Virus record (IMG/VR): IMGVR_UViG_3300032331_000666
Coordinates: 1-52,318 of that record
DNA: 52,318 nucleotides
Source: a virus
Strand: one strand, 5' to 3'
Numbering within the stretch: position 1 is the first letter of the stretch; each line of letters begins with the position of its first letter. The notes beneath the pieces were generated by a model that saw only the letters and a program-made list of their open reading frames with translations, was not told the origin of the DNA and searched no databases. Shown here in pieces: positions 13,238-37,944 of the stretch. Made by a program: the position numbers and the translations under genes.

Positions 13238-14272
13238 ATGGCACTCATACTAACTGGAGCATCAGGAGCAAGTACACTAGATAGTTCTACAGGATTAGCT
13301 GTGGCTACTTGGACAACTGCAGGAAGACCTACAAGTCCTGTTGCGGGGCAAACTGGCTATAATTCTACTTTAGGTGGATTAGAGTTTTATAATGGTATTG
13401 CTTGGATTTCTACAGCATCCTTAGCTAGTTATTCATCAACTTATTTAGTTGTTGCTGGTGGAGGAGGAGGTGCATCAGCATCTGGTGGTGGTGGTGGAGC
13501 TGGTGGATTACTTACTGGTACACAAACATTAAGTATAGGGGTAGTTTATACTATTACTGTAGGTGCTGGTGGTGCTTCAGTAGCGTCTGGCGCAAATACT
13601 AATGGTAATCCTGGAAATAATTCATCTATAGCTGGTTCTGGTATAACGACTATCACTGCAACTGCTGGCGGTTATGGTGGTACATTTAATACCGCTGGTG
13701 GTAATGGCGGTTCTGGAGGTGGTGGTGGGGGTAGAGCTTCTTCTGCTGGTGGTTCAGGTACATCTGGGCAAGGTTCTGCTGGTGGTGCATCATTAAGTGG
13801 TAATACAGGTACCACAGGTCGTGGAGGCGGAGGCGGAGGTGCTTCTGCTGTTGGAGCTACTGGTGATGCTTCAGGTAATGGCGGTGCTGGCACAGCATCA
13901 TCTATTTCAGGTTCGTCTGTAACTTATGCAGGCGGTGGAGGCGGTGGTAACTATAATCAAGCATCTGCTGGTTCTGGAGGTTCAGGCGGTGGGGGTACTG
14001 GGGGTACAGGTTCAACTTCTGGCGCAGCTACTGCAGGTAATGGTGCAAATGGGACAGCTAATACTGGTGGAGGTGGCGGTGGTGGCGGTTCTACTGCAAA
14101 TGCAACCCCTTCTTTAGCTATTGGAGGTGGAGGTGCTGGCGGTTCAGGTGTAGTAATATTATCTGTGCCAACCGCAAATTACACAGGTACAACTACAGGC
14201 AGTCCAACAGTCACAACATCAGGATCAAGTACAATTATTACATTTACAGCAAGCGGTTCTTACACCGCATAA
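13238..14272 (+). CDS. glycine-rich tail fibre adhesin, paralogue 1
   Basis: A 344-residue protein. The N-terminal attachment module (TWTTAGRPTSPVAGQTGYNS, LEFYNGIAWI) is followed by TYLVVAGGGGG and a long glycine-rich domain (about residues 75-300) with many runs of 4-6 Gly. The C-terminal cap is SGSSTIITFTASGSYTA. Glycine-rich sandwiches of this kind form receptor-binding tips in T4-like gp38 adhesins. Two close relatives follow at 15093 and 16116. Confidence 0.78.
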   Translation: MALILTGASGASTLDSSTGLAVATWTTAGRPTSPVAGQTGYNSTLGGLEFYNGIAWISTASLASYSSTYLVVAGGGGGASASGGGGGAGGLLTGTQTLSIGVVYTITVGAGGASVASGANTNGNPGNNSSIAGSGITTITATAGGYGGTFNTAGGNGGSGGGGGGRASSAGGSGTSGQGSAGGASLSGNTGTTGRGGGGGGASAVGATGDASGNGGAGTASSISGSSVTYAGGGGGGNYNQASAGSGGSGGGGTGGTGSTSGAATAGNGANGTANTGGGGGGGGSTANATPSLAIGGGGAGGSGVVILSVPTANYTGTTTGSPTVTTSGSSTIITFTASGSYTA

Positions 14273-14289
14273 TATAAAGGAGAACTAAA

Positions 14290-14586
14290 ATTTCACATTT
14301 CGCAAAAGTAGTAGACGGTAAAGTAGTTTCAGTCATTGTGGCTGAAGCCGAGTTTTTTGATACATTCGTAGATTCAAGTCCTGGTACTTGGATTCAAACA
14401 AGCTATAATACACATGGTAATCAACACCCAGAAGGCAGACCTTTAAGAGCCAATTACGCTGGAATTGGTTACACATACGATGCAACTAACGATGTATTCA
14501 TAGCCCCTAAACCATCAGACACAGCAGTGTTAAACGAAACAACATGGTTATGGGAAGATACAGTAACTGAAAGTCCACAAGGATAA
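14290..14586 (+). CDS. conserved phage protein with probable ATT start codon
   Basis: Codons upstream of the first GTG (14338) keep the family's normal N-terminus: from ATT at 14290 the product reads (M)SHFAKVVDGKVVSVIVAEAE, then FFDTFVDSSPGTWIQTSYNT. This 'HFAKVxxGxVxxVIVAExEFF' start is what I know from many phage homologues. AAGGAG lies 9 bases before the ATT (14279-14284). The alternatives are a GTG start giving an 82-residue protein, or an ATG-to-ATT base error. Function unknown; it lies in the fibre cluster. Confidence 0.65.
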   Translation: MSHFAKVVDGKVVSVIVAEAEFFDTFVDSSPGTWIQTSYNTHGNQHPEGRPLRANYAGIGYTYDATNDVFIAPKPSDTAVLNETTWLWEDTVTESPQG

Positions 14587-14589
14587 TAC

Positions 14590-15096
14590 ATGATACAAAA
14601 AAGAACACCAATGATATATGAAGACTTTGTTCCTTACTTTAAAGTTGAAGGTGGGAATCTTATCAGTCTATATAATTCTAGATCTAGAAAAATTGGATCA
14701 ATTGTTGGATGTAAACATAATGAAGGGTATTTAACCTGTCTTCACAAAGGTAAAACTTATAAAGTGCATAGAATTATTTATTTGCTTACACATAAAACTT
14801 GTCCATATATTATTGATCATATCAATGGTATTAAAGATGACAATAGACCAGAAAATTTAAGATCTGCATCATTAAGTGATAATAGTTGTAACTCTGTTCA
14901 TAGAGTTAATAATACATCTGGAATTAAAGGCGTTCATAAAATGAAGGATGGTTCTGGTTATCAGGCAAGTATTACACGTCAAAGAAAACGTACATTTCTT
15001 GGTTTGTTTAAAACTCTTGAAGATGCTAAAAATTGCATTGAATCTGCAAGAAAAGCTATGCACGGTGAATTTGCAAACACTGGAGTATCTATATGA
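14590..15096 (+). CDS. free-standing HNH homing endonuclease with AP2-like domain
   Basis: A 168-residue protein. The central HNH region has HRIIYLLTHK, then IIDHINGIKDDNRPENLRSA (the H-N-H type core). The C-terminal part, SGIKGVHKMKDGSGYQASIT then TFLGLFKTLEDAKN, is an AP2-like DNA-binding domain. Such genes are selfish elements that cut homologous sites lacking them. It lies between two glycine-rich fibre paralogues and ends in ATGA overlap with the second, so it has inserted without breaking coupling. Confidence 0.85.
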   Translation: MIQKRTPMIYEDFVPYFKVEGGNLISLYNSRSRKIGSIVGCKHNEGYLTCLHKGKTYKVHRIIYLLTHKTCPYIIDHINGIKDDNRPENLRSASLSDNSCNSVHRVNNTSGIKGVHKMKDGSGYQASITRQRKRTFLGLFKTLEDAKNCIESARKAMHGEFANTGVSI

Positions 15097-16106
15097 GTAA
15101 TGCGGTCAATCTATCAGCACTAGGTTCTAACGGAGGCACAGCCATATCTACATGGACAACTGCCACAAGACCTTCAAACCCTATTGCGGGTCAGTTTGGA
15201 TATAACTCTACCACTGGAAATATGGAATATTATAATGGTTCTTCTAGTGCGTGGTTTACAGTAAATAATACTTCTACAGCTCCTTATTCAGCAACTTATT
15301 TAGTAGTAGCAGGTGGAGGCGCTGGTGGTGGAGTAGGAGCATTTTCAAATGGTGCAGGTGGTGGAGGTGCTGGTGGATATTTAACAGGTACGGCTACATT
15401 TGCACCTGGAACAACTTATTCAGTTACAGTAGGTGCTGGAGGTGCAGGTAACTCCGCTAACACTGGGTCAAATGGAAATAATTCTGTATTAAGTGGTGGG
15501 GCAATATCTACTCAAACTGCTGTTGCAGGTGGTGGTGGTGGTAAGGAAGGTGCAAATAGTAGTAATGGTAATGCTGGCGGTTCTGGAGGAGGAACTGGAG
15601 GACCAGGAACACCTGGTGCTGGAACAGCTGGACAAGGAAATTCTGGAGGTGGATATACATCTGGTTCACAAGCTGCTGGTGGCGGTGGTGGAGGCGGTGC
15701 TGGTGCTGCAGGTAATAGTGGTACTAGTTCAACGGGTGGTGCTGGGGGTGTAGGATTAGCTAATACAATTACGGGGTCATCAGTTTATTATGCTGGCGGT
15801 GGAGGTGGTGGTGCATATCAACCGTCTTCTTATCCTGGTGGTGCTGGTGGTAATGGCGGTGGCGGTGCTGGATACAGTAACGGTGCAGGTAATGGTTATG
15901 CTGGTACTGCTAATACAGGCGGTGGCGGTGGTGGAGCTTCAGGATATAATACAACTCAAACAGGTGGTAATGGTGGCTCAGGCGTAGTTATATTATCTAT
16001 TCCTACATCAAGATATACAGGCACAAGTACAGGTTCACCTACAATCACAACATCAGGCTCAAATACAATATTAACGTTCACAGCATCAGGAAGCTACACA
16101 GCATAA
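15093..16106 (+). CDS. glycine-rich tail fibre adhesin, paralogue 2
   Basis: A 337-residue protein with the same plan as the protein at 13238: TWTTATRPSNPIAGQFGYNS N-terminal module, ATYLVVAGGGAGGG, a Gly-rich body with repeated GGGGGG clusters, and the cap SGSNTILTFTASGSYTA. Caps of paralogues 1 and 2 are nearly identical while the bodies differ, so the receptor-contact loops appear to have diverged between conserved ends. Its start overlaps the HNH gene by four bases. Confidence 0.78.
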   Translation: MSNAVNLSALGSNGGTAISTWTTATRPSNPIAGQFGYNSTTGNMEYYNGSSSAWFTVNNTSTAPYSATYLVVAGGGAGGGVGAFSNGAGGGGAGGYLTGTATFAPGTTYSVTVGAGGAGNSANTGSNGNNSVLSGGAISTQTAVAGGGGGKEGANSSNGNAGGSGGGTGGPGTPGAGTAGQGNSGGGYTSGSQAAGGGGGGGAGAAGNSGTSSTGGAGGVGLANTITGSSVYYAGGGGGGAYQPSSYPGGAGGNGGGGAGYSNGAGNGYAGTANTGGGGGGASGYNTTQTGGNGGSGVVILSIPTSRYTGTSTGSPTITTSGSNTILTFTASGSYTA

Positions 16107-16115
16107 GGATAAATT

Positions 16116-17129
16116 ATGGCATTAACCCAAGTCCCACCAGCGCTTTTAACTTCTACTACAGGAACAGGAACAACTGTTGTATTAGGCACATCGCCTACGA
16201 TTACTACTCCTACTATTTCAGGCCAATTAAATAATCCTACTTGGACAACTGCTACACGTCCCGCAAGTCCTATTACTGGAACTCAAGGTTATAATACAAC
16301 TACTGGTCAGTTAGAGATTTATAATGCATCTACTACTTCTTGGCAAAACGCTGGTACCTCAGGCGCTGCGTATACTATAGAATATTTAGTAGTTGCTGGT
16401 GGAGCTGGTGGTGGTAGAACAAATGGTGGAGGTGGCGGTGCTGGCGGATATTTAGCTACTACACTATCAAATCTTGCAGGCGTATCATATTCGGTTACTG
16501 TGGGTGGGGGCGGTGCTGGAGGCACTTCTACTTCTGCACCTGGTACAAATGGTTCTAATTCTGTTTTTAGCTCTTCTACATCTATAGGTGGTGGAGGCGG
16601 TGGCGGTATTAACGCTAACGGTGCTTCTGGCGGCTCAGGTGGTGGCGGTGGTGGTGACCCAGGGCCATATACAGGCGGTTCAGGTACTTCAGGTCAAGGT
16701 TTTGCTGGTCAAGCTGGTCCGTTTGGAACCCAACGAGGAGGCGGTGGTGGAGGTGCTAGTGCAGCCGCAACAACTCAAAACGGAGCTGATGGATTAAATT
16801 GGCAGTCACTCGGAACCTTTTATGCTGGTGGAGGCGGTGGCGGTTCTAATGTTGCTGCTGGTAATAGTCCAGGTACTGGTGGAGCTGGTGGCGGTGCAGC
16901 AGGCTTGGGCGCAAGTGCATCAGGCGTTCCAACTGCAGCTACAGCAAATACTGGCGGTGGTGGTGGTGGGTCTGGCGGTAACGGTAGTGCATCTAATGGC
17001 GGTAACGGAGGTTCAGGTATTGTTATTCTTCGCTACTCTGGTTCACAAAGAGGCACAGGTGGTACAGTCACTTCAGCGGGTGGATATACATACCATACAT
17101 TTACAAGCTCAAGCACATATACATCATAA
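16116..17129 (+). CDS. glycine-rich tail fibre adhesin, paralogue 3 (different C-terminal cap)
   Basis: A 337-residue protein. The N-terminal module contains TWTTATRPASPITGTQGYNT and IEYLVVAGGAGGG, and the Gly-rich body is as in its paralogues. The C-terminal cap is YSGSQRGTGGTVTSAGGYTY, unlike the SGSYTA cap of paralogues 1 and 2. A piece of an SGSYTA-type cap lies just downstream (17139-17198), which suggests that this gene's end was replaced by recombination. Confidence 0.78.
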   Translation: MALTQVPPALLTSTTGTGTTVVLGTSPTITTPTISGQLNNPTWTTATRPASPITGTQGYNTTTGQLEIYNASTTSWQNAGTSGAAYTIEYLVVAGGAGGGRTNGGGGGAGGYLATTLSNLAGVSYSVTVGGGGAGGTSTSAPGTNGSNSVFSSSTSIGGGGGGGINANGASGGSGGGGGGDPGPYTGGSGTSGQGFAGQAGPFGTQRGGGGGGASAAATTQNGADGLNWQSLGTFYAGGGGGGSNVAAGNSPGTGGAGGGAAGLGASASGVPTAATANTGGGGGGSGGNGSASNGGNGGSGIVILRYSGSQRGTGGTVTSAGGYTYHTFTSSSTYTS

Positions 17130-28548: not shown

Positions 28549-30786
28549 ATGTTTAACAATAAATTTAGAATCGGTGTATTACAACATCCTGGATACCATA
28601 AAGGTAAAGGCGGAGGTGGTGGTTCAGCTGCACCTACGCAGTCTACTAATTATACGACTAATATTCCAGAATACGCTAAACCATATGTAGAGAATATGCT
28701 TAATGCTACTCAGGCTCAGATTTATGATCCTAGCATGAGCACATTTAATAAATATGTTCCTTATTCTACAGATCCTACTAAATACGTTGCTGGCTTTTCT
28801 CCACTACAAAGCTACGCACAATCTGGTGCAGCTGGATTAAATCTTCCTGCTAACTATGGGTTAGCCACTGGCCAAACATTAGGCACTGGCGCTCAAATGG
28901 GTGCGCTTGCACCACAAATGGGTATGGCTGGTGCAAATTATGCATCTATGGCTACTAATCCATATGCTACTAGCGCATACATGAATCCATATTTAAAAGC
29001 TTCTTTAGCTCCACAATTAGAAGAAGCACGTAGACAATATGACATTACTGGAGCACAACAACAATCGGCTGCTACTCGTGCTGGTGGTTTTGGTGGTTCT
29101 CGTGAAGCTCTCATGGCTGCTGAAAACAGACGTAATATGGGCACAGCTATGAACCAAATGATTGGTCAAGGTTATAACAATGCTTTTGGTCAAGCACAAC
29201 AAGCGCAACAGTTTGGTGCTAACTTAGGTCTTCAAGGTCAACAAGGTCAGTTAAGTGCATTACAAGGTCAGCTTGGTGCTGCTAATCAATTGGCGGGTCT
29301 TGGTGGTCAACAACTACAAGCCCAACAAGGTATCTACAATCTTCAGAATCAACTTGGTCAGCAACAACAAACACAACAACAAAACGTTATCAATCAAGCT
29401 ATTCAAAACTACGCTACAGAACAACAATATCCATTTATGCAATTGGGTGTTCTCAACTCTATGCTTCGTGGTTTACCAATGCAACAATCTTCTACACAAA
29501 TGTATCAAGCACCTCCAAGTACAGTATCTCAATTGGCAGGTTTAGGTACAGCAGGTCTTGGTGCATTAGGTATGTACAATCAAGCTACAGGTGGTAAAAG
29601 CGGTGGATTGATGGAAGTTAAGAAGATGGCTATTGGTGGTAGTGCTATTCCAATGAAGAGCTACTCTGACCAACAATTACAAGGCGTATTAAAAAGCCCA
29701 GCATCATCTATGATGGCTGATATCTATGCTCAATCTTTAATGAAAGATCGTGCTTACTTAAAAGCTAATCCATTGGCTGCTAACTTAATTAGTCAACAAC
29801 AAATGCCATCAGGAATACCGCAAGCAATGCCACAAGGAATGCCTCCACAAGCTCCACAAACACCTCCTATGCCTTCTCCAGATCAAATGGCTATGGCACC
29901 CCAAACACGTATGGGTTTAGATAATATTGGCACTGGTGAGATGACTCAAATGGCTGGTGGTGGTTTATTAGCGTTTGCTGATGGCGATGTAGTTCCATCT
30001 ACAAAAGTATTACCATCTATGGATCCTAATGTAATCCCTAAAGATAAAAAAGGCGACTACGATTGGGATACTTATATTGCAAACAAACTATCACAAAAAT
30101 ATGCAGAAAGCCCAACTGTTAAATCTCAAAGAGAAGCTTTAGAAGCTGGTATTGCTGAGCGTAAAAAGGGCATGGGTTATGAAGGCTTAACTCGCTTTGG
30201 TTTAGACTTAATGGCTGGCCAATCTCCTTACGCTTTATCTAATGTAGGCGCTGCTGGTAAATCAGCATTAGACTTTATGTCTGGAGAAGGTAAAGATATT
30301 GCTAAAGATAGAGAAAAACTTCTTGAACTTAAATCTGGCGAAGAGAAAAATAAAGAAGCTCGTGAAGCTCAAATGTTGGGCTATGCAATCCAAGCTGACA
30401 CAGCTAAGAAGAATAAGATTCTACAAATGCAACAAATTGCAGCAACTCGTGATGCTACTGCAGCAAATCAACTTGCTACTAACCAACAAAATGCAGCTAA
30501 ACTTTACAGTGACAATATGGTTAAAAATGTATTATCATTACGTAAATACTATTCTGATACTGGTTTACCAGTGGACGAAAATGATTTACAAGCAGAAGCA
30601 GAAAGACTTACATATAACGCCTTTAAATCTGCTCCAAAAGGCAGTGTCATGGCTGATTATATGGCTGGTGTTCCTGCGCCTGAAGCAAGAAAACCAAAAG
30701 AAGTGGCACCTAAAAAAGAGCCAGGTTTCTTTGAAAACCTTTTTGGTGGAAGTAAAGCAGTAGATTTTAATCAACTACCTAAGTAG
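28549..30786 (+). CDS. large Gln/Ala-rich internal virion (ejection) protein
   Basis: A 745-residue protein. The first ~340 residues are Gln/Ala/Gly-rich helices (QAQQAQQFGANLGLQGQQGQ and similar), followed by hydrophobic STVSQLAGLGTAGLGALGMY. There are GG motifs at KSGGLMEVKK and AGGGLLAFADGD, and a C-terminal charged helical region. This composition and its place directly before the giant polyvalent protein match core proteins that podoviruses inject with their DNA. No enzyme motif was seen. Confidence 0.62.
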   Translation: MFNNKFRIGVLQHPGYHKGKGGGGGSAAPTQSTNYTTNIPEYAKPYVENMLNATQAQIYDPSMSTFNKYVPYSTDPTKYVAGFSPLQSYAQSGAAGLNLPANYGLATGQTLGTGAQMGALAPQMGMAGANYASMATNPYATSAYMNPYLKASLAPQLEEARRQYDITGAQQQSAATRAGGFGGSREALMAAENRRNMGTAMNQMIGQGYNNAFGQAQQAQQFGANLGLQGQQGQLSALQGQLGAANQLAGLGGQQLQAQQGIYNLQNQLGQQQQTQQQNVINQAIQNYATEQQYPFMQLGVLNSMLRGLPMQQSSTQMYQAPPSTVSQLAGLGTAGLGALGMYNQATGGKSGGLMEVKKMAIGGSAIPMKSYSDQQLQGVLKSPASSMMADIYAQSLMKDRAYLKANPLAANLISQQQMPSGIPQAMPQGMPPQAPQTPPMPSPDQMAMAPQTRMGLDNIGTGEMTQMAGGGLLAFADGDVVPSTKVLPSMDPNVIPKDKKGDYDWDTYIANKLSQKYAESPTVKSQREALEAGIAERKKGMGYEGLTRFGLDLMAGQSPYALSNVGAAGKSALDFMSGEGKDIAKDREKLLELKSGEEKNKEAREAQMLGYAIQADTAKKNKILQMQQIAATRDATAANQLATNQQNAAKLYSDNMVKNVLSLRKYYSDTGLPVDENDLQAEAERLTYNAFKSAPKGSVMADYMAGVPAPEARKPKEVAPKKEPGFFENLFGGSKAVDFNQLPK

Positions 30787-30789
30787 ATT

Positions 30790-33700
30790 ATGCCAATAGA
30801 TGTCAGGATGCCTGATGGGACTCTTGTAAAGAACGTCCCAGATAACATAACGCAAGCTGATTTGCTTGCCAGATATAATGCCTTCTCGGCACAACCTGCC
30901 ACGTCTATAGCTCCTGAAATACAAGTAAAACCACAAGCTCCTCAAGTTGGTCCTGAAGGCGCTCCTATACCTCCTATACTACAAACACAAACCCAAGTTT
31001 CAGAAGATAGACCACTTGCTGGATCTGCTAGAAAAGGCATAGTTAATTTACAGCAAACTGGTGAAAACTTACGCCTTGCTAATCTTATGGAGTTACAAGA
31101 CGCATACAAACAACAGTATGGTCAAGGCTATGAAAATGCTCCCCCAGAAAAGATTGTAGATCTACAAAAACTAGAAGATGATATTAATACTTCTAAACGT
31201 GTATCTACATCTTATGATTTAAAACGTCAAACACTTAGCAAGCAATATGGTATTACGCCATTATCTCAAAAGCTAGATGAAGTTCAATCTACTCCAGAAT
31301 ATCAAAATGCAAGTGGCATTCAAAAGTTTCAATCTATTGGTGAGACATTACTTAAAAACCCAGGAGACATACCATCTTACATTGGTAACATTGGATTAGA
31401 AAGTTTACCTAATTCAATGGCCATGATGGCTTCTGCTGTTGTTGCTAGGTATATGACTGGCAGTCCATCTTCTGCAGCTGTAGCAGGTGGAACTACATCT
31501 TCATTTACAGAGTTTGGCAATCAATATGTAAGTAACAGAGAACAAGGAAAATCCCACCAAGACGCTATGGCGGAAGCATCTGTTAAATCTGGAATCATTG
31601 GTTACTTTGATGCCGTATCATTTGGATCTGCTGGTAAAGCACTAGAAGAAATCATTAAAGAATTTAGTAAGGGTGCCATTAAATCTACTGCAAAAGAAGT
31701 AGGTAAAGAAACTGTTAAACAAGCAGCTTATGGTGCTGCTGGAGAAGCTGTAGGATCAGTTGCTACAGGACAGCCTATTGATCCACGTGCTGTAGTAGAA
31801 GAAGCCCTAGGTGAAATTGCTGGCGCACCTATGGAAGCTGTTACAACATACAGATCTAATAAAGCAATTGCAGATCAAAATGTACGACCAACACCGCCTC
31901 CAGTATCAGAAAGAGTAGAGCCAGAAGTAACTCCTATTCGACCTGCTACTACAGAACCTGCCACAGTAGAAACTTCCGCCCCTACAAAAGTAGATACATC
32001 ACATGATACTCAAGCTATGCTTGATGAGTTATCTGGCAAGGATGTTGAATATGTGCCAGAAGAAGAAATAAAACCTATTGGACCTCCAAGGCTTACAGAA
32101 GAGGAAAAGGCTCAGCTTGCACCATTAGATAAGCTGAATGCTAAAGACCGTAAGATACATAATATGCCAACGCCAGAACTTCAAGCAATGGCTGATCAAG
32201 GAATGATTCAATGGTCAGATGAATTTATTGATTCTTTAAACAAACCAAAACAAGAAGTTATTCAAACTACCCCCATGGGTAACAATACCGAATACCATGT
32301 TTTACAAAACGATCAAGGCCATGTTGCAAATCTTTACGATAAAGACGCTGGTCAATACGTTCCTGGAAGTTTGAGAATATTCCCTACTGAGACATTTGGA
32401 GAGCAAACAGAAACAGCAGCTAAGAATTTTGTTCAAGAGGAACAGGACAAAGCTGCACAATATGAACCATCAATTAAAGAAGAGCCTACAGGTATTATTT
32501 CTGAAGAAGAAAGACAATTTACTCCAGTAGGTGGCAGGCTTATCAATAAGAAAGATGCTGATAAATTAGCTCGTGAGTCAGCTATTGCATTAGAACAAAA
32601 TTTAAAGAATCAAGAAATTCAAAGAGACAAACAGATTAGACGTGAGATTCGTGAAGATAGGTTCCCAGCTGCTGAAACACCATCGCTAGCTTCAGCTCTT
32701 AAAGCTTTAGGTGGTATCAACCAATCCAATAAATTAGATATGCTAGGAGATACTGGCAAACTGTTTAATTATGAAAGTGCTTTTTCAAAAGATGGTGAGG
32801 ACTTACTTACCTATATTGAAAAGGGAGACCTTGATCAATACCTTCCACATCAAATACGTTTAAGTAATACACCTGAAGGCGAAGCATTTGATCCTAGACC
32901 TGGATATGAATATATATCTAAAGTTATTGAGTCAAAACAAAAAGCATATGATTACGAATATGAATTAGCTAAGATTGATCATGAAAATCAGATCAAAGAA
33001 AAATATCTAGCTAAACAATACATGGAACCTAACGAAGAAGCAAGAGTTGCTAGAATTGAAGATTTAAATTTAGGTCCGATGTATGAAAAAATAAAAGCCA
33101 AGCCAGGTGCTAACGTAGGAAGAATAGCAAAAATGCTAGGCCCTCAACTATATGGCAGCATGGAAAACATATCTGAAGTTTCTGTAAAAGAAATGGTTCA
33201 AAATTCGTTTGATGCAATTAAAACGATGATTGAAAAAGGTGTTATGGATAAGGGCAATATTAGCATTAATATGAATGTAAGCGACAGATCTATTACAATC
33301 AAAGATAATGGTAGTGGAATGAGTCCAGATGTTCTTCAAAATACATTTTTTACCATTGCTGGAACAAATAAAGAAACTGAGTTTGGCTCTGGAGGGTTTG
33401 GTATTGCTAAAATGTTATTTTTATTTGGCAATCAAAACGTAGAAGTCACTACCATGCGTGACGGACAAATTAGCCATTTTGTTGCGTCTGGAGAACAATT
33501 AAAAGCGTCTTTAGATGATCCATCTCAAGCTCCAGATATTAACACTTATGCTGCTGACCAATACAACAAAACAGAACTAAGAGAAGATTTTCCGCAAGGA
33601 CATGGCACTATAGTAACAGTTGTTGTTCCAGAAACATTTACCAATCCATCAACTGGGAAAACTGAAGATATTCCTTTTGTTGCAGATAAATTTGAATTTC

Positions 33701-36700
33701 CAGTATTAAGATATAGCCCATTATTTTCAAATATTGAAATGAGATTTAATGAGGAAAATTTAATGCTTGGATCTTCATTTCCCAAAGAAGATTACACTAC
33801 ATTTGTTAATGCGGATTTTGATTGGGGTACTGCAAGAATATACGTAAGTACATCTGAAAGAGATAGATGGGGTAAAAATTTACATGTACTATCCAATGGT
33901 TTATGGCAATTTAGTGAAGAATTAACAAAAAAACCAGGTGATAAATATGCAGATAATATTCCATATAGATTTTATGTAGACATTGTTTCTAGAGCAAAAC
34001 CAGATGAACAAGGATATCCATTTACATTTAATCGCCAAAGTCTTACAAAAGAAGCAACTGCTGATCTTGATCTTATAAAAAATTACTTGTGGCTTAACTA
34101 CACAAAAAAAGATATATCTAGCACAAGTACTAGCTTTGGAAATGTACATTACCTAAGCAAAAAAAATGGCAAAATTAATGTTTCAGCAAAAGAAGATTTA
34201 AATCCAGAAGTTAATGTTCAAGAAATTTCAGATGGCATTCAAGAAGGATCTAATGTAAAAGTTATTGATGGTAAGTTAATTGTAAACGGAAAAGAAATAC
34301 CAGCATTAAATCTACAAGATCTAAAAAATGCAACTATTGACTTAGATGAGTTAAAAATACCTCAAGACAATGTCAAATCAAATGACATCATGGTTCATGA
34401 TAATTTAGGAGTAGAAATTGAAGGAAACTTCAGGCCTATTACTGAATTAGCTAAAGAAAAGTTTGGCGAACGTTTTGATCAATTTATGTATGAAATTGGA
34501 GACGTATTTAAAACATTAAGAGACCGTGTCGTTTATCTTAATATTAAAGGTGAATTACCAAATTATGATGATGTTGGCTATAAAGATTTAGCTAACCATG
34601 CTATTGGTATATCATTTGACAAAGAATATAGAGGTGTTAGTATTAAACTACCATTTAATGGTATGTTTATTAACCCAGCATTACCAGAATTTACAGATCC
34701 AGAAGGTGCTGGTTTTGGTTTATTTGGTACAATGATACATGAGTTGGCTCATTATCAAGTACGAGATCATGAAGAAAAGTTTCCTGCAGAAATGCAAAGA
34801 CTTAGTATTGTTTTAAAGAAAGACAAAGAATTTGACTTGAATGGTTTAGAACAAGAGCTTGTAAAGTCAGTTATTAAAAATAAAGATATATTAGACTATT
34901 TAAATGACCTTGGAGTAAATTATGAATCAGAAGCTATTGGACAGCGTTTCAAAGACAGCGAATACGAAAGAGCAACTAGACGCACTTCTCAGAACATATC
35001 TGAGTCTGGGAGAGCGAGACAACCTGGACGGGAAGTATCTAGCAACATTAAATCAAGGGATCAAATTGCTAGACAAATGCAGCAATATCAATCAGTTCCG
35101 TCAGCGAATCAAACAACACAAAGGCGTGTAGCAGGACAACCACCACCTAGAAACTTTAGAGGCCAAGAAGTATTGCCTCAATGGCACGGTCCTGAAGAAT
35201 CTAAAATAGATGATTGGATTTACAATCTTCAAAACAAACAGATTGATACTAAGCGTGTTCAAGAAGCTATTGGTGACATAGAAGAGAACTGGAACGTATA
35301 CGAAAAAGAACAGCTATACCATGGTAGAACTGCATCAGGTATTCGTAACTTCTTACTCAAAGAACTTCTACCAGTTATCAAAGAAATTGAACGCTTAAAA
35401 ATTAGCCCTGAAGACATTCGTACTTACTTGCATAATCGTCATGCAGAAGAGCGTAACATTCGCATGAATGAAAAAAATCCAGATATCTACGATCCTAAAA
35501 CAGGAAGAACAACTCCTAATCCACTTAAAGACAAAGCATCTGGTATTCATACTAACGATGCACGAGCTTATTTAGCAGGTTTAGATCCAGCTAGAAAACA
35601 AATCTTAGAACAGATTGCAACTAAGTTTGATGAAATGGTTAAAGGCACACAAGATGTATTAATAGCTTCTGGTGCAGAAACTAAAGAGACTATAGACAAA
35701 TGGAATAAAATTTACAAACATTACGTCCCATTATTTAGAGTTGAAGATGATATGGCCAGACCATCAGGCCTGAGTGGTGTTGGTCAAGGCTTTGGTTCTC
35801 GTGGTGACTTTAGTAAACGTGCTATGGGTTCAGAGAAAGATGTTCAAGATATTTTAAGTAACATTATTGCTCAGCGTGAACGTGCTTTAATCCGTGCTGA
35901 AAAAATTAGAGTAGGCCGTGCTTTATATGGCATGGCTATACAGAATCCTAATCCAGACTTCTGGTTACCTATTAACCCTGATGCCATTAGAAATAAGAAA
36001 CAAGCTATTGCTGAATTAAGACGCATGGGTATTCCTGACGCTGAAGATGTAGTAAACAATCTAATGGCTGAGCCTAAAGAGCGTTATCTTAAAAAGATAA
36101 ACGCTGCTGAAGGAGCTGTTGAGCCCGATGAAAATTTTGACTTTGATTCAGGTCTTCCAGTTAATGAAAGTAAAGAGGTTGTGGCATCTAAGATTAATGT
36201 CATGGCTCGATATAAAGACTTTGTATTCCCAGTTAGAATTAATGGTAAAGACAGGTATATATTCTTTAATAAGAATGATCCAAGATCATTACGCATGGTT
36301 CAATCATTAAAGAACTTAGATGTAGAGAATCTAGGATTAGCATTAAGTATTGCTGGTAAGTTTACCCGCTGGTTTAAAAACGTTAATACACAATACAATC
36401 CAGTATTTGGACTAGTCAACTTCGTCCGTGACTTTAGTGGCGCATTACTTAACTTAACTAGCACAGAGATTAAGGGCGAACAGGCTAAAGTTATTGCAGG
36501 CGCTTATAAAGCTATGGGTGGTATCCTAAACGTACACCGTGCTGAGCGTAAAGGCAAACCATTACCTACTGGACCATGGGCTAAGCTATACCAAGAAGCC
36601 CGTGCTGAAGGATTCCAAACAGGCTATCGTGATTCATTGATTCGTAATCAAGAAGAAATGCAAATTATTGAACATACGCTTGAACAGTTTAAAGATAGTA

Positions 36701-37944
36701 ATACTAAGAAAGCTTTTTACTCTGTGATTGGAGGACTTACAGACTTCAATGACATGATGGAAAATGCTATTCGCTTATCTGCTTATAAGGTAGCTCTTGA
36801 CAAAGGTCTATCAAAACAAAAAGCAGCGATCATTGCTAAGAATTTAACAGTTAACTTTGATAAGAAGGGTGCTAAAACTGCTCAAGTCAATGCGCTTTAT
36901 GCATTCTTCAACGCATCTATTCAAGGTACTGAACGTATCTATCAAACAATTAAGGGCCCTAAAGGCAAGATGATTATTGGTGGTGGTATCTTAGCTGGTA
37001 TGGTTCAAGCTGTAATGCTGGCAGCTGCTGGATATGACGATGATGATCCTCCAGAGTTTGTTCGTGAAAAGAACTTTATTATTCCATTGATTGATGGTAC
37101 ATACTTAACCGTACCTTATCCATTAGGTTATAACGTGCTACCTAACGCAGGCCGTATTGTTATGGACTTTATGTTACATGGTGGACGTGATCCAGGTAAG
37201 CATTCAGTATCTTTATTAGCATCCACTTTAAATTCATTTAACCCATTAGGTAACACAAGCCTTTCATTCCAAACACTTGCCCCTACAATTGCAGATCCAT
37301 TGGTTGCATTAGGTGAAAATAAAGATGCGTTTGGTAGACCTATCTCTCGTAAGGATCGTGCTACAGCACCAACGCCTGGCTATACAAGATCAAGAGAAAC
37401 AGCATCTAAAATTAGCCAAGGATTAGCTTACTTCCTTAACTTAGCATCAAATGGATCTAAGTATCAAAAAGGTTATATTAGTCCAACGGCTGATGAGCTT
37501 GACTTTATTGCAGGCCAGGTCGGTGGTGGTTTGTATCGTGAAGTCACTAAAGCTGGTAAAGCTATTAGCGCAATAGTCACTGGTGAAGAGATTCCAACAT
37601 ACCAAAGACCAGTGGTGGGTCGTTTTGCAGGCAAGACAGGATCACAAGCATCCGTATCACAATCATTCTATGATAATGTGACTCGCATGACTGACCACGA
37701 GAATGAGATAAAAGGTCGTATGAAGAATAGAGAAGACGTAGAAGGATATTTAACAGATCATCCAGAGGCTAGATTATGGAAGAGAGCTAACTCTGTTGAG
37801 AATAAAATTAATGAATTGAATAAAAGAAAGCGTTTATTTGCAGAACGTGGCTTCCCTAAAGAGCGTATCCAAGCTGTTGATGCTCAAAAAACTATGCTCA
37901 TGCAAAGATTTAATACTCAGGTTAAGAACTTACGTCCTGATTAA
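30790..37944 (+). CDS. giant polyvalent virion protein: GHKL ATPase, HELAH zincin, LPD38-like region
   Basis: A 2384-residue protein. The N-terminus, MPIDVRMPDGTLVKNVPDNI, is typical of podoviral core proteins. Residues ~780-1110 hold a GHKL (Hsp90-like) ATPase: N-box EMVQNSFDA (801-809), DNGSGM (839-844) and GSGGFGIAK (866-874). A zinc metallopeptidase motif HELAH lies at 1317-1321. Residues ~1840-2240 resemble large polyvalent protein domain LPD38 (YNPVFGLVNFVRDF, NLTVNFDKKG, VPYPLGYNVLPN), including a hydrophobic GGGILAGMVQAVMLAAAGY. It is probably ejected into the host, as T7 gp16 is; enzyme targets are unknown. Confidence 0.78.
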   Translation: MPIDVRMPDGTLVKNVPDNITQADLLARYNAFSAQPATSIAPEIQVKPQAPQVGPEGAPIPPILQTQTQVSEDRPLAGSARKGIVNLQQTGENLRLANLMELQDAYKQQYGQGYENAPPEKIVDLQKLEDDINTSKRVSTSYDLKRQTLSKQYGITPLSQKLDEVQSTPEYQNASGIQKFQSIGETLLKNPGDIPSYIGNIGLESLPNSMAMMASAVVARYMTGSPSSAAVAGGTTSSFTEFGNQYVSNREQGKSHQDAMAEASVKSGIIGYFDAVSFGSAGKALEEIIKEFSKGAIKSTAKEVGKETVKQAAYGAAGEAVGSVATGQPIDPRAVVEEALGEIAGAPMEAVTTYRSNKAIADQNVRPTPPPVSERVEPEVTPIRPATTEPATVETSAPTKVDTSHDTQAMLDELSGKDVEYVPEEEIKPIGPPRLTEEEKAQLAPLDKLNAKDRKIHNMPTPELQAMADQGMIQWSDEFIDSLNKPKQEVIQTTPMGNNTEYHVLQNDQGHVANLYDKDAGQYVPGSLRIFPTETFGEQTETAAKNFVQEEQDKAAQYEPSIKEEPTGIISEEERQFTPVGGRLINKKDADKLARESAIALEQNLKNQEIQRDKQIRREIREDRFPAAETPSLASALKALGGINQSNKLDMLGDTGKLFNYESAFSKDGEDLLTYIEKGDLDQYLPHQIRLSNTPEGEAFDPRPGYEYISKVIESKQKAYDYEYELAKIDHENQIKEKYLAKQYMEPNEEARVARIEDLNLGPMYEKIKAKPGANVGRIAKMLGPQLYGSMENISEVSVKEMVQNSFDAIKTMIEKGVMDKGNISINMNVSDRSITIKDNGSGMSPDVLQNTFFTIAGTNKETEFGSGGFGIAKMLFLFGNQNVEVTTMRDGQISHFVASGEQLKASLDDPSQAPDINTYAADQYNKTELREDFPQGHGTIVTVVVPETFTNPSTGKTEDIPFVADKFEFPVLRYSPLFSNIEMRFNEENLMLGSSFPKEDYTTFVNADFDWGTARIYVSTSERDRWGKNLHVLSNGLWQFSEELTKKPGDKYADNIPYRFYVDIVSRAKPDEQGYPFTFNRQSLTKEATADLDLIKNYLWLNYTKKDISSTSTSFGNVHYLSKKNGKINVSAKEDLNPEVNVQEISDGIQEGSNVKVIDGKLIVNGKEIPALNLQDLKNATIDLDELKIPQDNVKSNDIMVHDNLGVEIEGNFRPITELAKEKFGERFDQFMYEIGDVFKTLRDRVVYLNIKGELPNYDDVGYKDLANHAIGISFDKEYRGVSIKLPFNGMFINPALPEFTDPEGAGFGLFGTMIHELAHYQVRDHEEKFPAEMQRLSIVLKKDKEFDLNGLEQELVKSVIKNKDILDYLNDLGVNYESEAIGQRFKDSEYERATRRTSQNISESGRARQPGREVSSNIKSRDQIARQMQQYQSVPSANQTTQRRVAGQPPPRNFRGQEVLPQWHGPEESKIDDWIYNLQNKQIDTKRVQEAIGDIEENWNVYEKEQLYHGRTASGIRNFLLKELLPVIKEIERLKISPEDIRTYLHNRHAEERNIRMNEKNPDIYDPKTGRTTPNPLKDKASGIHTNDARAYLAGLDPARKQILEQIATKFDEMVKGTQDVLIASGAETKETIDKWNKIYKHYVPLFRVEDDMARPSGLSGVGQGFGSRGDFSKRAMGSEKDVQDILSNIIAQRERALIRAEKIRVGRALYGMAIQNPNPDFWLPINPDAIRNKKQAIAELRRMGIPDAEDVVNNLMAEPKERYLKKINAAEGAVEPDENFDFDSGLPVNESKEVVASKINVMARYKDFVFPVRINGKDRYIFFNKNDPRSLRMVQSLKNLDVENLGLALSIAGKFTRWFKNVNTQYNPVFGLVNFVRDFSGALLNLTSTEIKGEQAKVIAGAYKAMGGILNVHRAERKGKPLPTGPWAKLYQEARAEGFQTGYRDSLIRNQEEMQIIEHTLEQFKDSNTKKAFYSVIGGLTDFNDMMENAIRLSAYKVALDKGLSKQKAAIIAKNLTVNFDKKGAKTAQVNALYAFFNASIQGTERIYQTIKGPKGKMIIGGGILAGMVQAVMLAAAGYDDDDPPEFVREKNFIIPLIDGTYLTVPYPLGYNVLPNAGRIVMDFMLHGGRDPGKHSVSLLASTLNSFNPLGNTSLSFQTLAPTIADPLVALGENKDAFGRPISRKDRATAPTPGYTRSRETASKISQGLAYFLNLASNGSKYQKGYISPTADELDFIAGQVGGGLYREVTKAGKAISAIVTGEEIPTYQRPVVGRFAGKTGSQASVSQSFYDNVTRMTDHENEIKGRMKNREDVEGYLTDHPEARLWKRANSVENKINELNKRKRLFAERGFPKERIQAVDAQKTMLMQRFNTQVKNLRPD

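Follow-up and report, generated by a model that had tools for sequence, protein, structure and literature searches.

The locus examined here raises the question of what a GHKL ATPase and a zinc protease are doing together inside one giant phage protein. The window, which is the whole 52,318-nucleotide stretch that we analyzed (the 52 kb IMG/VR contig IMGVR_UViG_3300032331_000666), contains a single ATG-started open reading frame at 30790-37944 that codes for 2384 amino acids without an internal stop and that lies on the + strand, as do all of its parts and the upstream neighbor described below. A sequence-only reading had reported GHKL motifs, a HELAH motif and an LPD38-like C-terminus in this one frame, and our ORF and Pfam analyses show that these assignments and their coordinates are right. 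A frameshift or assembly artefact as the origin of the giant frame was ruled out, as the frames of close relatives share its start and end. From its N-terminus the protein is composed of a carrier region (aa 1-764; 30790..33081) that is 44-60% identical in the closest relatives L003 and L012 and 30% identical in L004, followed by a GHKL-zincin module (aa 765-1402; 33082..34995) and by a C-terminal carrier scaffold of ~935 residues (aa 1450-2384; 35137..37941). The scaffold includes an LPD38 domain (aa 2085-2276; 37042..37617; Pfam E 5.5e-32), and because of this domain we assign the protein, on the basis of its sequence, to the phage-type polyvalent proteins. This assignment agrees with the joining of unrelated enzymatic domains to an LPD domain in one large chain, and with the exchange of domains among family members that is seen in relatives where the central cassette is swapped.

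The first enzymatic part is a GHKL (Bergerat-fold) ATPase domain at aa 775-945 (33112..33624), which is recognized both by Foldseek and by Pfam, where HATPase_c_3 (residues 796-917, E 1.9e-10) and HATPase_c (E 5.1e-6) both exceed their curated cut-offs. All of the expected motifs are present on this fold, specifically the N-box EMVQNSFDA (aa 801-809; 33190..33216), the G1 box DNGSGM (aa 839-844; 33304..33321), the G2 box or ATP lid GSGGFG (aa 866-871; 33385..33402) and the G3 motif GT (aa 939-940; 33604..33609). These are followed by a transducer-like region (aa 950-1110; 33637..34119) with a WG at 1012-1013 and the motifs SNGLWQF and YPFTFNRQ; R1082 also belongs to this region. When 64 modules with a mean pairwise identity of ~42-48% were aligned, the ATP-site residues E801, N805, D808, D839, G843, G868, G871 and K874 were invariant, as was R1082. 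In Foldseek searches the module model matched HtpG, TRAP1, MORC2-4 and GyrB over ~400 columns at E ~1e-12, and the best viral model, A0A516L4L2, covered the whole module with a TM score of 0.82 by query length.

The second enzymatic part is a zincin domain at aa 1200-1380 (34387..34929) that has the zinc site HELAHYQVRDH, an HExxHx5H motif (aa 1317-1327; 34738..34770), with F1331 after it. H1317, E1318, H1321 and F1331 are invariant in the 64 aligned modules, 63 of which also have H1327. Since these catalytic residues and those of the ATPase are invariant, the motifs of both domains are not a product of chance. Single-sequence Pfam searches gave weak WLM matches (E 0.078 with the whole protein, 9e-4 with the isolated domain), with the window domain at 19.8 bits not reaching the WLM family cut-off of 26. 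Among 56 homologous zincin domains, 50 match WLM (best 3.7e-6) and 53 match YgjP-like families (best 2.4e-5), indicating that the module zincin is of a WLM/YgjP-like type. AlphaFold2 predicts the zincin alone with confidence (pLDDT 93.5, pTM 0.89), placing two long helices at the HExxHx5H site, and the whole module, modeled on the 64-sequence alignment, has a mean pLDDT of 86.1 and a pTM of 0.79. The structure prediction that the sequence-only reading had proposed as a check thus places both the GHKL and the zincin motifs in confidently predicted folds. A comparison of the zincin model with solved structures gave no significant match, the best being IrrE/PprI (E 0.18) and Wss1 (E 0.73); these are zincins with DNA-linked roles, and we treat the predicted likenesses as leads only.

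We explored the surroundings of the two domains by comparing the window protein with relatives that share its scaffold. The closest relatives, L003 and L004, have C-terminal scaffolds that are 82-84% identical to that of the window protein and neighboring and upstream genes that are mostly 61-94% identical, yet aa ~770-1450 are replaced in both by unrelated sequence. This indicates that the GHKL-zincin segment is a cargo cassette. In L012, L018 and L025 the same slot is occupied by ART-PolyVal, the ADP-ribosyltransferase of polyvalent proteins. We also observed that the central cassettes of L003, L004, L019, L020 and L034 have no Pfam match and represent further cargo in this slot. Relatives of the scaffold occur in at least 416 viral contigs, and the scaffold is also found in the Methanosarcina virus MetMV (L016), where its 38-41% identity is closer than that to many bacterial phages.

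A GHKL family search of 70 scaffold-bearing records detected the domain in the window only and in none of the 69 others. This first suggested that the GHKL domain was unique to the window phage, a view that was overturned when more than 70 other giant phage proteins, mostly 35-57% identical, were found to carry the whole unit. The family was opened with a two-sequence alignment that included the GHKL domain of Pasteurella phage Pmp14, which recovered 27 viral loci, of which ~15 match along the entire cassette with 38-43% identity, and a family profile then extended this set to 112 contigs. After de-duplication there are 77 giant proteins with the GHKL part, 74 of which have an HExxHx5[HED] motif at the matching downstream place. 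The Pmp14 protein itself (L015:5938-7893) is 652 aa long and combines GHKL with a PD-(D/E)XK nuclease-like region at its C-terminus (HSDR_N_2, PDDEXK_9); its gene lies between phage tail genes, and it is reminiscent of defence proteins that join GHKL to a nuclease, such as VcSduA.

The zincin is similarly tied to the GHKL domain. A zincin sub-model matched 102 frames, all 102 with a GHKL domain, at loci that had previously been found through GHKL motifs. Because of that origin we also ran a zincin-only scan, for which a closer subset of sequences served as the query, 25 distant ones having proved too variable when aligned. At 79 of the 80 loci recovered, a GHKL domain was present in the same frame, and the 80th locus ends at a contig edge. 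The identity matrices of the two domains also co-vary (Spearman 0.77, with 0.25 as the best of 500 permutations). We conclude from these sequence comparisons that the GHKL and zincin domains are obligately linked in one inseparable unit at aa ~765-1402, and this linkage together with the invariant active sites indicates that the two activities are likely used together.

This unit is found on different bodies. By Pfam, module carriers have an LPD38 scaffold, an LPD39 scaffold or neither. For example, the modules of L147 (LPD38) and L178 (LPD39) are 64% identical while their C-termini have no detectable similarity, and L122, L123, L147 and L178 have modules with 54-55% identity to that of the window protein but C-termini that show no match to its own. 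Such comparisons indicate that the module moves horizontally between carrier scaffolds. The three domains recognized by the sequence-only reading stand, and the GHKL-zincin pair, far from being a one-off fusion, is a conserved two-enzyme module that dozens of giant phage proteins carry on differing scaffolds. At the N-terminus, several carriers with different bodies have a common ~30-residue element like 'V.IPG.G.V.FPD.MS..EI' (seen on comparing window aa 1-35 with L123, L127, L161, L174, L178 and L186), and in other carriers the chain opens with 'YPQYNDLSD..LA...H.KFYS' or with tandem repeats of short motifs (FVPLSE, FSLEEA). By analogy to P1 DarB, where the first 30 residues are a capsid-targeting tag (PMC9024508), these elements could be capsid-targeting tags.

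Is the giant protein delivered with the phage DNA? Directly upstream lies a gene for a 745-aa protein (28549..30786) that resembles a DNA-ejection protein (phrog_4287, E 3e-12), and most of the compared carriers, among them some with unrelated C-termini, have a homologue of this neighbor immediately before the giant gene. The ejection-protein resemblance is limited to this neighbor, as PHROG and Pfam searches gave no match of the giant protein to T7 gp14-16 or to P22 gp7/16/20. The position of a podoviral core protein that had been proposed for the giant gene holds in so far as it directly follows an ejection-like gene. The giant protein and gp69 of Burkholderia phage JC1 are homologous across aa 1468-2253 of the former (25% identity, E 2e-47), and mass spectrometry of virions purified on CsCl detected gp69 by 51 unique peptides (PMC9144972). 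Because this homologue of its C-terminal part is in virions and because its gene follows an ejection-like one, we infer with good grounds that the window protein is probably packaged and delivered as well, in keeping with the sequence-only reading, which had called it a virion protein. Elsewhere in the window, the ORFs starting at 13238, 15093 and 16116 (13238-17129) all match phrog_2295, which suggests that they are tandem paralogues.

The reading that we tentatively favor, although at slightly less than even confidence, is that the protein is a polyvalent carrier with exchangeable cargo and that its cargo here is an ejected, ATP-gated protease in which a GHKL clamp presents substrate to the zincin. 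Carrier regions at both ends flank an exchangeable slot, which holds a GHKL ATPase with its transducer region and a zinc protease of the WLM/SprT-like type, along with a small beta-rich connector. The giant protein would be packaged in the virion and enter the cell together with the DNA, where its GHKL domains may dimerize upon binding ATP as do those of Hsp90, MORC and gyrase. Dimerization would close the clamp around a substrate, which could be a host protein or a complex of protein and DNA, and clamp closure would position or activate the zincin such that the substrate is cut, after which ATP hydrolysis would reopen the clamp. GHKL gating of an effector has a possible precedent by analogy in VcSduA, which joins a GHKL domain to a nuclease and for which such gating has been hypothesized (PMC12137116). 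A host-defence or DNA-bound target of the module is likewise suggested by analogy, and the earlier proposal that the protein remodels or cuts host targets such as defence proteins would fit with it. For the plasmid protein ArdC, which has a metalloprotease domain, interspecies conjugation was not reduced when the metalloprotease center was disrupted (PMC7213743), so conservation of a zincin in proteins of this kind does not by itself imply a host-directed protease.

A different and rather doubtful reading is that the zincin is a maturation protease that cuts the giant chain before packaging or after ejection, with the GHKL domain timing the cut through ATP, which would be low inside the capsid and high in the cytoplasm. 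Self-processing by the zincins of polyvalent proteins has been proposed by Iyer et al. (PMC5512222), and the module zincin is the only HEXXH of the window protein, located 132 residues upstream of the C-terminal scaffold in profile coordinates, with an HEXXH also present 120-200 residues upstream of the scaffold in 27 of 63 complete LPD38-scaffold frames. However, 39 of the 59 complete carriers contain a further HEXXH elsewhere in the chain than in the module, mostly HE[LV]LHAAT, where 0.6 would be expected by shuffling. This makes polyprotein processing a less likely job for the module; the extra motif in L099 and ~38 other complete carriers is probably the carrier's own processing peptidase. 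Furthermore, the module zincin clade was never seen without a GHKL domain, and LPD38-scaffold relatives that lack GHKL often have a different HEXXH. The window protein has no second zincin, so there the module zincin could also perform processing.

It is improbable, in our estimate, that the GHKL domain is instead an Hsp90-like chaperone carried along to refold either the giant chain or host clients once the narrow tail has been passed, with the zincin clearing misfolded chains. A protein of 2384 residues probably must unfold to exit the capsid, and the PDB profile matches of the GHKL part are nearly all Hsp90-family N-domains (TRAP1, endoplasmin, HtpG), both of which speak for a chaperone. 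In contrast, relatives of equal size with the same scaffold manage without a GHKL domain, the module model is about equally similar to MORC and GyrB, and the best NCBIfam match is the BbrUII/HgiDII restriction-enzyme family (E 2.7e-6). The HtpG equivalog model scores only 19.5 bits against a cut-off of 371, and a zincin follows the GHKL part in place of the Hsp90 C-terminal domain. We give slightly less credence still to a role of the module in the producing cell, during assembly or in the timing of lysis, where it would be a T4 rIIA relative fused into the giant protein and packaged as a mere passenger. Proteins of the rIIA type are among the closest phage GHKL relatives in sequence and structure searches, but the module always occurs inside giant proteins, adjoining ejection genes in those compared, and to our knowledge rIIA has no zincin. 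Finally, that the domains are catalytically dead or purely structural and kept by chance is very hard to credit, as essentially all catalytic residues are invariant in the 64 divergent modules.

Searches for the pair outside of these carriers gave little. The full module was not found in 50,697 phage records, and sequence searches of plasmids, phages and the PDB returned matches to the GHKL part only, mostly generic ATP-binding proteins, rIIA and Hsp90. When bacterial and archaeal genomes were scanned with a profile, at a sensitivity limited to exact short motifs, no module relative was found; a single-protein cassette scan of viral contigs found no relative, PADLOC gave no match and no description of a GHKL-zincin pair came up in the full-text literature searches. 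Polyvalent proteins are a known class, and the two-enzyme GHKL-zincin cargo module is not described in the literature searched.

The findings show that phages of uncultivated lineages keep exchanging one ATPase-protease pair, intact, within giant, probably ejected proteins that are otherwise not related to each other. We know of no established energy-dependent protease that does not use an AAA+ ATPase, and if the pair is an ATP-gated protease it would represent a new mechanistic class of energy-dependent proteolysis. The fuller proposal, in which a GHKL clamp instead of an AAA+ ring powers an interchangeable virion warhead that destroys host, possibly DNA-bound defence, proteins on entry, is one we consider unlikely. 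If the pair does act as an ATP-gated protease, it would also likely be a counter-defence or take-over tool that is delivered ahead of any phage gene expression. Close relatives with swapped cargo provide natural controls, and the module can be tested as one 650-residue fragment.

Among known systems, the LPD38/LPD39 polyvalent proteins (Iyer et al., 2017; PMC5512222) have the same giant multidomain build, LPD38, a zincin, exchangeable enzymatic domains and presumed injection; in the window protein, by contrast, GHKL is coupled to one particular zincin, and the two travel between scaffolds as a unit. The terms GHKL, Hsp90, gyrase and histidine-kinase are absent from the main text of that paper, and MORC occurs only in a reference title. 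JC1 gp69, a DarB-like protein (PMC9144972), shares the homologous scaffold and an HEXXH 132 residues upstream of it in profile coordinates, but has 4515 aa and other cargo, with no HATPase_c_3 match in the JC1 genome. Wss1/SPRTN (WLM/SprT) and IrrE/PprI are linked to the window zincin by weak but consistent WLM and fold matches and by an HExxHx5H followed by F, and differ in having no GHKL domain, with the window zincin falling below family cut-offs. The T4 rIIA-like proteins are also phage GHKL ATPases with detectable sequence and structure similarity, but are separate proteins without a zincin and outside of giant ejection proteins. Finally, VcSduA, a GHKL-type Shedu protein (PMC12137116), shares an N-terminal GHKL domain, a clamp-like middle, a C-terminal hydrolase and proposed gating; its hydrolase is a nuclease rather than a protease, and it serves bacterial defence rather than being an injected phage protein.
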